Origin: Patescibacteria group bacterium
GTDB taxonomy: Bacteria; Patescibacteriota; Minisyncoccia; Phycocordibacterales; UBA12079
Direction of reading: 5' to 3'
DNA length: 41,577 nucleotides
NCBI GenBank assembly: GCA_018817595.1
Contig: JAHITU010000031.1
Span: forward strand, 1-41,577
The stretch's first letter is position 1, and every line of letters starts with the position of its first letter. Both the position numbers and the translations under genes were made by a program. Below are positions 1,848 to 26,357 of the stretch, one piece after another. The notes under the pieces were generated by a model. That model saw nothing but the letters and a program-made list of their open reading frames with translations, was not told the origin of the DNA and searched no databases.

Positions 1848-1867
1848 ATTATTAGACGAAGTGCTTC

Positions 1868-1980
1868 TATTATCAACGTAGAGCGAGAGTAATTGTAAAT
1901 AACGAAACGCAGTGAAGTTATTTACAATTACCGAGCCGAGGAGTTAATATAGGTGAATATCTTTTAGATATTCACCTATA
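1868..1980 (+). repeat. Double-hairpin element, copy 1
   Basis: The order is an outer half-stem TATTA at 1868-1872; conserved box CGTAGAGCGAGA at 1877-1888; a perfect 14-bp hairpin (1890-1903 with 1917-1930, 13-nt loop); conserved box CGAGCCGAGGAG at 1932-1943 followed by TTAATATA; then a second perfect 14-bp hairpin (1948-1961 with 1967-1980). Copy 2 at 24518-24600 has the same boxes and layout but unrelated stem sequences. It lies 17 nt beyond the pilin stop on the minus strand. The strand given is the one in which it was read; the functional strand is unknown. Confidence 0.7.
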
Positions 1981-23020: not shown

Positions 23021-23106
23021 AGAAAGTTTATTTCTTTTTTATTTTTTGAATTACAAAATGTAGCTTGGAATAATACTATATTTTGTCATCCAAAATATTA
23101 TGTTAT

Positions 23107-23320
23107 ACTAGTAAAAAAGTGTTTCCTATGTGATTTATTATATCTAAATAAATAAGATATACACATAACACAAAAAGCGCTATACCAAAATTTTCTGGAT
23201 AGTCTTTTAATTATTAAAAAAGTAGTTTTGCCTTCTATCAGAACTCAATTAGTGCAGATAAAACTCTAAGACATTAGAATAAACCATTTTACAAAAAATG
23301 TCAACGAATTTCCGTTGACA
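23107..23320 (-). promoter_or_regulatory. rpoB promoter and structured 5' leader
   Basis: On the minus strand TTGACA (23299-23304), a 17-bp spacer and TATTCT (23276-23281) form a promoter that gives a leader of about 250 nt before rpoB. The -35 box lies in one arm of a perfect 8-bp hairpin TGTCAACG / CGTTGACA (23299-23320). Within the leader a longer imperfect hairpin pairs GTGTTATGTGTATATCT with AGATATAATAAATCACAT and AAACAC (about 23118-23170). A TATAAT at 23137-23142 is an alternative closer promoter with a weak -35. The 383-bp interval 23021-23403 holds no other gene that I can support. Confidence 0.5.
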
Positions 23321-23358
23321 ATTGTGTATAAATAGTATCTCAGAAAACTCCAACAATA

Positions 23359-23405
23359 AAAAACAAAACCACTTAGTAGTTGAGTTACTAAGTGGTTTTG
23401 TTTTT
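23359..23405 (-). terminator. Terminator of the Cys-rich protein gene
   Basis: AAAAACAAAACCACTTAGTA pairs with its complement across a 7-nt loop (arms 23359-23378 and 23386-23405). The right arm overlaps the TAA at 23404. T-rich on both strands. The central 35 bp (23365-23399) recur exactly at 23911-23945. Confidence 0.75.
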
Positions 23406-23613
23406 ATTCCTCAATTTGTTCCATTTCGCTAATTTCTTCCTCTTCACTAAAGTCTTCACAACCATCACTCATTGTACAAGAACAACCCTCCATTTTACAT
23501 TTCCCATACCTTTCCCTATTAACAATTTTTTCATCAACCGCTACATCACTAGATTCCATAGGTTCATGCATCTCACAAGGATGCCCACAAGCACACATTT
23601 TTTCTTCCATCAT
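23404..23613 (-). CDS. Small Cys-rich acidic protein (probable metal-binding)
   Basis: 69 aa. Two cysteine clusters: CACGHPCEMH near residues 7-16 and CKMEGCSCTMSDGC near 39-52, a pattern suited to one or two zinc or iron sites. The C-terminal third is almost entirely Glu/Asp/Ser (FSEEEEISEMEQIEE). I recognise no named family; small CxCGHxxxxH proteins of unknown role are common in bacteria. TAATAT lies 7 nt before the first ATG, consistent with a leaderless start; the second Met is an alternative. It is closed by a strong terminator and separated by 46 nt from the next small gene. Confidence 0.6.
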   Translation of the reverse strand: MMEEKMCACGHPCEMHEPMESSDVAVDEKIVNRERYGKCKMEGCSCTMSDGCEDFSEEEEISEMEQIEE

Positions 23614-23659
23614 ATTTTAAATATTATTAATTAATAATTACCTTAATCTAAATTAGATA

Positions 23660-23806
23660 TTAAGAATATAAAATCTTTTTACTATATTCCTCTTCTTCTT
23701 TTTTCAAAGATTTCTTTTGCACGAAAGGAATATTTTTCTTAGTATGATGTTTAGGTGGAAAAACAGGTTTATCCTTTTCAGCTGTAGGTTGTATTTTTTT
23801 AACCAT
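23660..23806 (-). CDS. 48-aa lysine-rich peptide
   Basis: 48 codons, ATG to TAA. The product begins MVKKIQPTAEKDKPVFPPKH and ends with KKEEEEYSKKILYS: highly charged, proline-containing and probably unstructured. No family recognised. Codon content is ordinary for the window. It is flanked, together with the Cys-rich gene, by two identical 35-bp hairpins (23365-23399 and 23911-23945). A 16-bp palindrome ACCTATTTAAATAGGT at 23818-23833 lies just upstream and may be an operator. No Shine-Dalgarno sequence, so the call is tentative. Confidence 0.45.
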   Translation of the reverse strand: MVKKIQPTAEKDKPVFPPKHHTKKNIPFVQKKSLKKEEEEYSKKILYS

Positions 23807-23910
23807 AATATTTCTTAACCTATTTAAATAGGTGTTTTAACTAATAAACAAATTATACAAAACCAAAGATGAAGAAAAGATAAAGATTTCTTAAATTTTC
23901 CATAAAAACC

Positions 23911-23945
23911 AAAACCACTTAGTAGTTGAGTTACTAAGTGGTTTT
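23911..23945. repeat. Exact second copy of a 35-bp hairpin
   Basis: Identical in all 35 positions to 23365-23399 (arms AAAACCACTTAGTA, loop GTTGAGT). It follows no obvious gene, but would terminate transcription from either side: TTTTT follows on the plus strand and a T-rich stretch on the minus strand. Confidence 0.75.
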
Positions 23946-23948
23946 TAA

Positions 23949-23979
23949 AAAATTGCAGGCACCCGGTGCCTGCAATTTT
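23949..23979. repeat. 31-bp palindrome with GGCACC/GGTGCC centre
   Basis: Perfect 15-nt arms around one central base (AAAATTGCAGGCACC, C, complement). It lies 3 bp after the 35-bp hairpin. Its GGCACC-C-GGTGCC centre resembles that of the palindrome at 27687-27709. Confidence 0.65.
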
Positions 23980-24032
23980 CTGTATAATTTTCTATTTTTA
24001 TTTTTTGTTAGCTTTTTGTAATTATATTTTTT

Positions 24033-24062
24033 CATTCTACAATTCTATAGAATTGTAGAATG
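24033..24062. repeat. 30-bp perfect palindrome, copy 1 of a pair
   Basis: Arms CATTCTACAATTCTA / TAGAATTGTAGAATG, followed by TTTTTT on the plus strand. The same 28-bp core with one changed base recurs at 26275-26302. In the interval 23807-24323 I see only such palindromes and no gene. Confidence 0.65.
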
Positions 24063-24078
24063 TTTTTTAGGTTAGATT

Positions 24079-24106
24079 TTCAATGGCTATACCCATAGCC
24101 ATTGAA
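24079..24106. repeat. 12-bp hairpin next to the 30-bp palindrome
   Basis: TTCAATGGCTAT / ATAGCCATTGAA with loop ACCC, 17 bp after the palindrome at 24033-24062. Confidence 0.6.
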
Positions 24107-24288
24107 TCAGGCCTAGATCAAAGCATTTTAGATACTTTAAGGTGAGTTTTTTGGTTAGAGTTAATATAAATACTATATGTAATAATATAAAAAACCCAAA
24201 GGCAAGCACCTCCCCTACTATACTAATACTAACAAATTCATTATAAAGAAAAGATAAAGTTTTTCAGGTTTTAATTCAGCTAAAATCA

Positions 24289-24317
24289 TTGACACATATT
24301 TAAAATAAATGTATTAT
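24289..24317 (+). promoter_or_regulatory. Near-consensus promoter ahead of the MFS leader
   Basis: TTGACA at 24289-24294, a 17-bp spacer and TATTAT at 24312-24317, one of the best promoters in the window. The expected start coincides with an ATG at 24324, 6 nt after the -10 box. Confidence 0.75.
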
Positions 24318-24323
24318 TTAGGT

Positions 24324-24455
24324 ATGAATATAAGAAATTCACAAAAACTAAATAGAGTAGATTATAAGAAAGCCATCACTGGGTCTTTTCCTATGTGTGC
24401 TAACAATCTATTTATATTTAGTCGTGAGTATTTTAGAATTATTTTTAAACTGTAA
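24324..24455 (+). CDS. Possible 43-aa leaderless leader peptide upstream of the MFS gene
   Basis: 43 codons from ATG to TAA, beginning MNIRNSQKLNRVDYKKAITG and ending FIFSREYFRIIFKL. The product is basic and aromatic with no recognised family. Support comes from position: the ATG lies exactly where the strong promoter should start RNA. It is followed by a series of hairpins (24485-24642) and then the MFS gene 240 nt later. Either a true small protein, a regulatory leader peptide, or a chance reading frame at the start of a long structured leader. Confidence 0.4.
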   Translation: MNIRNSQKLNRVDYKKAITGSFPMCANNLFIFSREYFRIIFKL

Positions 24456-24484
24456 CCTATAAAATAATTAAAACCAATCTCCTT

Positions 24485-24642
24485 AGAACTTTCTCGACTA
24501 AATAAAAGTCGGGTTTTTATTAGCGCCGTAGAGCGAGAATAATCTAAAAAACTTTTTAGATTATCGAGCCGAGGAGCTAATATAGTTTGAAAAACTATAT
24601 TTAGTAAATTTTTGAATCTAACTAGATTCACCAGAAAGTTCT
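24485..24642 (+). promoter_or_regulatory. Multi-hairpin leader of the MFS gene
   Basis: The outer inverted repeat AGAACTTTCT / AGAAAGTTCT (24485-24494, 24633-24642) encloses the double-hairpin element copy 2 (24518-24600) and a further hairpin GAATCTA-AC-TAGATTC (24614-24629). The ribosome-binding site of the MFS gene lies about 40 nt beyond. Arrangement suggests RNA-based control (inference). Confidence 0.45.
24518..24600 (+). repeat. Double-hairpin element, copy 2
   Basis: Outer stem TATTAGC (24518-24524) / GCTAATA (24576-24582); conserved box CGTAGAGCGAGA at 24527-24538; perfect 12-bp hairpin 24539-24550 with 24553-24564; conserved box CGAGCCGAGGAG at 24565-24576 followed by CTAATATA; second hairpin ATATAGTTT-GAA-AAACTATAT at 24580-24600. 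Boxes are identical to copy 1 at 1877 and 1932, while both stems differ completely in sequence but remain paired. Confidence 0.7.
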
Positions 24643-24695
24643 TTTAAAATTCAAAAGTCCTAAATCTTAAAAAAGATTGGACAAAGGAGATTCTC

Positions 24696-25858
24696 ATGAA
24701 AGCAAATATTTGGAAAATCTACATCATTAGTTTTTTTGGTGGTTTTTTCTTTTTAAGTAGCGTCCTCGTCCTTTTTTTACAGACTGGGGAGGATTAACCC
24801 TTTCTCAAACATTAAGTCTACAATCATGGTTTATGGTATGTTGTTTTGTGTTCGAGTTCCCTTCTGGAGGTTTTGCTGACCGTTTTGGAAAAAAACTAAG
24901 TCTGGCTTTAGCCTTTATTTTGGAAAGTCTTGGTTTTGTCGTTTATGCTAGTATTCCTAATTTTTGGGTTTTTATATTAGCAGAAACTATTTTGGCCATA
25001 GGTTGTTCCTTAATTTCTGGAACAAAAAGCTCTTTTATTTCCTGTTCTTTAAAAAGCTGTGATCAATCACATCTTTTGAAAAAAGTATTGGGGAAAAATG
25101 AATCTATTTCTATGATAGGAATGTTGCTTGGTTCTTTTATAGGCGGATTTATTGCTCACTACATTGGTTTAAGAGAAACTGTCTTTTACACAGCCATTTC
25201 TCCAGCCATTGCCTTTGTGATAAGTCTGACTCTAATTGAACCAAAAAATGGTGCAATCAAGGAATCATATTGGAAAATTCTCAAAGAGGGATTTCTTTGT
25301 TTCAGAAATTCCAAAGCTTTATCGATGATTGCTTTGGATAAAATTATTGTTCAAATTTTATGTTTTTTCTTAATTTGGATTTACCAACCTTTTTTGAAAC
25401 AAGAAGGAGTAATTATTGTTTATTTTGGAATAATTCATTCTTTGATTTGTTTGTCTCAAATTGCAGTGCTGTCTAATTTTTCTAAGCTGGAAAATATTTG
25501 TGGTTCTGGAAAAAATTACTTATTTATGAGCTCCATAATTCCAGGAATATTTTTGATATTAATAGGAATATCTTTTGGGAATATCTTTTTTAAGATATTT
25601 GGAATCCTTGTAATTAGTGGTTTGGGATTATCCAGAGGAACCCTCTCTATAAATTATATGCTGGGGCATATAAAAGATTCTTATCAAACTACAGCATTAT
25701 CTTTTGCTGAAATGTTTCGTAAGATAATTACAGCCATTCTCTACCCTTTGATTGGTTTGTTAATGGATTGGTCTATTAATAACACTTTTATTATTTTAGG
25801 GTTAACCTTAATAATCTTTAGTTTAATTCCAACTATAAAGGATGAATACTTAAACTGA
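24696..25858 (+). pseudogene. MFS transporter gene with a frameshift in a T7 run
   Basis: AAAGGAG 7 nt before the ATG at 24696 marks the true start. The first frame reads MKANIWKIYIISFFGGFFFL and continues to a TAA at 24795. Changing the T7 run at 24772-24778 to T8 (or T5) joins it to the frame that reads FTDWGGLTLSQTLSLQSWFM, EFPSGGFADRFGKK and onward to 25858, giving about 387 aa with 10-12 transmembrane helices. EFPSGGFADRFGKK is the MFS loop 2-3 signature (G-x-x-x-D-R-x-G-R-R). The drug-exporter-like architecture is intact after the shift. Sequencing error, a recent mutation, or slippage on the T run are all possible; without correction a 342-aa product could start at the ATG 24833 but would lack the first helix. 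Promoter and leader at 24289-24642. Confidence 0.8.
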
Positions 25859-26260: not shown

Positions 26261-26268
26261 ATTTCTAT

Positions 26269-26308
26269 ATTGATATTCTACAATTTTATAGAATTGTAGA
26301 ATATCAAT
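26269..26308. repeat. 40-bp palindrome, copy 2 of a pair
   Basis: 17-nt arms ATTGATATTCTACAATT and complement around TTATAG. The central 28 bp differ from 24034-24061 at a single base. The two copies flank the MFS and 53-aa genes, 2.2 kb apart. Confidence 0.65.
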
Positions 26309-26357
26309 AATTTGTTTTGTACCTTTTTGTGACGATCTTCATAAAAAGATACAAAAC

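Follow-up and report, generated by a model that had tools for sequence, protein, structure and literature searches.

The region upstream of an MFS efflux-like gene in a Patescibacteria group bacterium is, we conclude with good though not full confidence, a ribosome-mediated transcription attenuator, in which alternative pairings predicted by folding would couple the position of a ribosome on a short leader frame to the formation of an intrinsic terminator. The window, by which we mean the whole stretch of 41,577 nucleotides analysed, is one entire contig of a genome of 816 kb (34 contigs, 97% complete) from a lineage represented by metagenome assemblies, and the features discussed below are collected in Table 1.

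Table 1. Features of the leader, the MFS gene and the dispersed element, in window coordinates.
Feature	Position	Strand	Remarks
Promoter TTGACA-17-TATTAT	24289-24317	+	11/12 consensus match; -10 end 6 nt 5' of leader ATG
Leader-peptide frame MNIRNSQKLNRVDYKKAITGSFPMCANNLFIFSREYFRIIFKL	24324-24455	+	43 codons; leaderless if transcribed from the promoter above
Segment 1	24346-24363	+	codons about 8-14; predicted to sequester segment 2 when ribosome-free
Segment 2	24405-24427	+	part encodes NLFIFSRE; ATTTAGTCG (24416-24424) pairs with 24495-24503 as predicted antiterminator
Outer 10-bp inverted repeat AGAACTTTCT/AGAAAGTTCT	24485-24494/24633-24642	+	span 24485-24642
Segment 3	24492-24503	+	terminator 5' arm and partner of segment 2
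Intrinsic terminator CTCGACT-AAATAAA-AGTCGGG + TTTTTA	24493-24519	+	-7.3 to -7.9 kcal/mol
Double hairpin (dispersed-element copy)	24515-24601	+	P1 24518-24524/24576-24582; second hairpin 24579-24588/24592-24601
7-bp hairpin TGAATCT-AACT-AGATTCA	24613-24630	+	no evidence of function found
Shine-Dalgarno AAAGGAG of MFS gene	24683-24689	+	
MFS efflux-like gene, broken frame	24696-25858	+	zero frame 24696-24797, rest in -1 frame
Second dispersed-element copy	1865-1952	+	unrelated context

The individual signals that a sequence-only reading had picked out in this region are all there, among them the near-consensus promoter, the 43-codon frame, the further 7-bp hairpin, and the AAAGGAG and MFS start some 370 nt from the transcription start (we place the ATG 372 nt from the predicted start). 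That the frame is leaderless holds if it is transcribed from this promoter, because its ATG then lies only 6 nt after the -10 hexamer. Promoter-grade matches number two in the window, this one included, where whole-window shuffles yield 0-6, and shuffles of 23021-24696 contain a mean of 0.155; a frame comparable to the leader frame occurs in 2.4% of shuffles. The outer 10-bp repeat, which had been taken as part of the control region, is also present, but at least one such repeat arises in 29% of leader shuffles and we therefore do not consider it meaningful alone. The leader as a whole folds much better than its shuffles (z -7.0), in part because of the dispersed element inserted in it. A caveat on the analysis as a whole is that the region had been chosen beforehand for its structured look.

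The terminator, which the earlier reading had not named, follows the small frame and precedes the double hairpin. It is tied to the frame by segment 2, which has two alternative partners, segment 1 upstream and the 5' arm of the terminator downstream, and the alternative pairings in the window follow the 1:2, 2:3, 3:4 logic of an attenuator. The duplex between segment 2 and the terminator arm has a predicted energy of -14.0 kcal/mol, a value reached in 0.25-0.3% of shuffled leaders. We folded the leader with a simulated ribosome footprint at successive codons, using a thermodynamic model that ignores kinetics. In this model the ribosome-free leader has a terminator probability of 0.97, while a ribosome at codons 5-15 gives an antiterminator probability of 0.93-0.99 and a terminator probability of at most 0.06; with the ribosome at codon 17 the values are 0.76-0.93 and 0.05-0.23, respectively, and past codon 17 the modelled leader is again mainly in the terminator form, apart from a partial drop around codon 25. 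Three consecutive switching positions were seen in none of 729 dinucleotide shuffles (any switching position in 5 of 729), and among 56 natural AT-rich terminators a run of three was found for the window's terminator only. In silico, then, the leader carries an antiterminator that excludes the terminator and depends on where the ribosome stands.

Is this arrangement peculiar to one contig? We first met the same layout upstream of MFS genes 27-30% identical to that of the window, in other families of the same order. A pattern search of 397 genomes then gave 12 matches and the reversed pattern, used as a control, gave none; nine of the 12, the window included, are leaders of one layout and the other three lack such a leader. 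The eight other genomes with the layout all belong to the same order as the window's genome. Eight of the nine leaders, again counting the window's, precede an MFS gene and one a GNAT acetyltransferase (L296, G051:C13:16859). The distance from the start of the -35 hexamer to the leader ATG is 34-36 nt in all nine, and the -10 hexamer ends 6 nt before that ATG in eight. The frames comprise 35-46 codons and in every case their ATG is in phase with codons for S/G-R-D/E; the motif is S-R-D/E, once G-R-D, its commonest form is L-x-F-S-R-D-x-F, and the frames usually end L-x-F-S-R-D. This constancy of position and reading phase in nine of nine leaders suggests that the short frame is translated. A terminator hairpin with a U-tract stands between leader frame and structural gene in all nine, starting 23-36 nt after the leader stop, and the gap from terminator to gene is 55-74 nt in seven of the eight leaders other than the window's.

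CGTGA and the core of the terminator were prescribed by the search pattern, so their conservation is in part a product of the search. The match between segment 2 and the terminator arm was not imposed in this way, and the two covary in all nine leaders: AGUCG or GGUCG in segment 2 goes with CGACU in the arm and AGCCG with CGGCU, the variable letter U being matched by A and C by G. The modelled drop in terminator probability with an early ribosome exceeds 0.9 in six of the nine leaders, is 0.59 in one and is small in two, and shuffles of each leader show a drop above 0.5 in 0-1.7% of cases; L299 and L306 have little or no switch and L302 switches at one position only. As to conservation of the small frame, which had been proposed as a check on the earlier reading, a protein search of 60 relatives found no homologue of the leader peptide, yet the layout is the same in eight other genomes. 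Between the terminator and the MFS start, L300, L302, L306, L307 and the window (24636-24648) also share a GTTCTTT box with a stretch rich in A, C and G after it; in L302 and L306 this region contains TTGACA, and an extra promoter or an RNA box are the options for it.

From parts, alternative pairings, a recurrence in eight other genomes and a reading phase that are all computational observations, we infer the following scheme. RNA polymerase would start at about the ATG of the leaderless frame. By default segment 1 would pair with segment 2, the terminator would form and transcription would stop. A ribosome that slows or stalls at about codons 5-17 would instead cover segment 1, and the freed segment 2, the RNA encoding F-S-R-E/D, would pair with the terminator's 5' arm so that polymerase reads into the MFS gene. 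The signal would be a translation-inhibiting compound that the pump exports. Leader-peptide or attenuator control, as the sequence-only reading had it, therefore stands in outline, because the terminator/antiterminator pairing, which goes beyond that of shuffles, overlaps the frame and because the layout recurs before MFS genes; the parts that carry it had been misassigned, and the window's own MFS gene is frameshifted.

This frameshift, missed before, is found when the MFS frame is read from its ATG, as it meets a stop at 24795-24797. A -1 shift at the run U_UUU_UUA (24773-24779) restores the frame, and the break may be an assembly error in the T run, a real loss or a case of slippage; the fold downstream of the run, where a structure stimulating frameshifting was sought, is no better than that of shuffles. 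The protein matches MFS_1 (PF07690) with 61 bits against a cut-off of 33. Models for Tet(40), TetA(P) and multidrug exporters match it far below their cut-offs, and for the MFS proteins of the family that were tested the nearest models are likewise Tet(40) and TetA(P), yet far below cut-offs. Close orthologues were found neither in the genus nor in the family, a scan of the genome collection with the window's MFS protein returned nothing, and relatives on plasmids reach no more than 36% identity, over part of the protein. A palindrome around CTACAATT.TATAGAATTGTAGAAT is present in two copies (24033-24062 and 26268-26309), one on each side of the MFS region. The window's terminator is also the weakest of the nine (-7.9 versus -14 to -19 kcal/mol), and it is this weakness together with the broken frame that leads us to think that the window's attenuator copy may be damaged or decaying. 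With the dispersed element seated in the U-tract of this terminator as well, the claim for the family is stronger than any claim for the present function of the window's copy. Here 182 nt separate the terminator from the MFS ATG; without the 87-nt element the distance would be about 95 nt.

What, then, is the double hairpin? Its presence, reported earlier, is confirmed by a copy that is complete but minimal, and we conclude that it is a later passenger in the attenuator and does not control the MFS gene. The window's genome holds six copies at unrelated sites. A covariance model built from these six found 1-11 copies of the element in each of 26 genomes out of 61, the window's own among them, and a rebuilt model, run on 380 genomes from across the phylum, found it in 35, for an overall copy number of 1-13 per genome (loci L043-L077, L081-L120, L154-L171 and L187-L266). 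The exact pattern occurs in species genomes at no fewer than 80 loci, about 12 of them titled only 'bacterium'; those informatively named, among the matches listed, are Patescibacteria (Kaiser-, Yonath-, Doudna-, Nomura-, Komeili-, Buchanan-, Magasanik-bacteria and others), and viral contigs did not appear among the matches listed. In a second, model-found copy set compensatory changes occur at 21 of 23 pairs, a count as high being reached in 0 of 500 shuffles. The internal loop has nearly invariant G.A/A.G juxtapositions, and the element runs from TTTATT-AGC to CC-TTTATT with a central AATATA able to pair with either end. An Rfam search at gathering score gave no match in the window and only tRNAs at 20 related loci, so a riboswitch or other known RNA family was rejected, and for the element itself we found neither an Rfam family nor a description in the literature searched.

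The element is probably mobile. We draw this from its unrelated neighbours, from a strand relative to them that is nearly free (++42, +-32, -+26, --24), from one genome in which near-identical copies have different flanks, and from an occupied and an empty site: in L048 (own C31:60241-60313) the element separates gatC from gatA and is antisense to both, and in L179, from a genome of the same genus with GatA 86% identical, the gatC-gatA gap is about 1 nt. It favours terminator U-tracts as a bias, a hairpin ending at its 5' boundary in 18 of 75 copies versus 7.5% at control positions. Tandem arrangements were seen as well: in L074 (G053) and L173 (G675) element-like copies are found next to or within partial tRNA gene duplicates, and in L172 (G451:C6:90779-90916) two stand in direct tandem 69 nt apart.

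Like the GTAG- or CGTC-tagged REP repeats of REP/RAYT systems (PMC3733652, PMC8266576), the element is a short palindrome dispersed between genes, its stem is interrupted and it carries the letters GACGTAG. Unlike in those repeats, its GTAG is found within the internal loop and not as a terminal unpaired tag, its ends being TTTATT; it also has a longer core, a second hairpin and the low copy number given above. A Y1 transposase (Y1_Tnp) was not found in six of 26 carriers, among them a genome with 11 copies, and on these grounds we rejected mobilisation of the element by a RAYT. The Y1_Tnp genes of the window's own genome carry other palindromes, and across the 61 genomes a single element copy lies within 1 kb of a Y1_Tnp gene, which likewise has other palindromes; Y1 transposases thus do not track the element. 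In L041 and L042 (own contigs C7 and C32) Y1_Tnp genes are flanked by and contain such palindromes (AGTAGGGGTGCTACCCCTACT; CGTAGTCGGAGTACG), and these are probably REP/RAYT systems distinct from the dispersed element.

Could the leader be explained otherwise? One alternative is translational attenuation of the ermC type, with the leader frame governing access to the MFS ribosome-binding site and not termination. The stretch AATCTCCTT (24475-24483) could base-pair with the Shine-Dalgarno region of the MFS gene, AAAGGAGATT (24683-24692), the minimum-energy fold of the entire leader pairs the two, and L302 and L299 have a similar TCTCC stretch between leader stop and terminator. However, this pairing is not present in all members, whereas the terminator with its U-tract is, and the conserved pairing is accounted for by the exchange between terminator and antiterminator, so we regard control by this means instead of termination as unlikely; as a second, translational layer working jointly with termination it is possible. 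That the small frame is a gene with its own terminator, and the MFS gene a chance neighbour transcribed from elsewhere, strikes us as quite improbable. A terminator does come after the small frame, whose codon usage is gene-unlike, differing from that of the window's genes by -0.12 bits per codon (the MFS gene is atypical too, at 0.04), but against independent units stand the antiterminator pairing and the same arrangement before eight other genes, seven of them at the 55-74 nt gap noted above.

The suggestion that an unknown RNA element controls the MFS gene did not survive, and a riboswitch-like role for the double hairpin itself is in our judgement very improbable, despite its high structure and conservation and an excess of G-U over A-C among the non-Watson-Crick pairs of its long stem (34 versus 11), which fits selection on RNA. 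The distribution of its copies speaks against it: those elsewhere in the genome are at unrelated sites, genes 3' of other copies are as diverse as thioredoxin reductase, murB, nusA, secD and lemA, either strand is used, and the element is missing from the other eight attenuators.

Transcription attenuation therefore remains our preferred reading, and its closest parallel is the bmrB-bmrCD system of Bacillus subtilis, a ribosome-mediated transcription attenuator in which slowed ribosomes favour read-through (PMC4191407). Both have a short leader frame, an intrinsic terminator and drug-exporter genes downstream, and in both an antiterminator and an anti-antiterminator, predicted by folding for the window-type leaders, overlap the frame (PMC4191407). 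The differences are that bmrB is preceded by a 5' UTR and carries its terminator within the coding region (PMC4191407), whereas the window-type frame is leaderless with its terminator 23-36 nt beyond the stop; that the bmrCD exporter is of the ABC and the window-type exporter of the MFS type; and that window-type leader peptides, unlike bmrB, mostly end L-x-F-S-R-D. The pairing logic is also that of the trp-type attenuators of Escherichia coli (PMC4191407), but the window-type leader has no run of a regulatory amino acid and its target is an exporter, not biosynthesis.

We lean towards the view that the nine leaders represent an undescribed Patescibacteria family of leaderless leader-peptide attenuators with a shared switch segment encoding F-S-R-D, which would activate efflux pumps, as well as at least one acetyltransferase, upon early ribosome stalling; this would amount to antibiotic-type sensing in bacteria that depend on hosts and are for the most part uncultured. 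Among cultured bacteria, pumps under inducible control that senses ribosomes are known. The kind of regulation is thus a known one, and our search, which covered a subset of the literature, found no earlier description of attenuation or of such repeats in Patescibacteria. The nine leaders provide a ready test set, and the element lodged in one of them is a conserved dispersed structure with a terminator bias. If the proposal is true, reduced and mostly uncultured Patescibacteria would meet translation inhibitors and respond to them.
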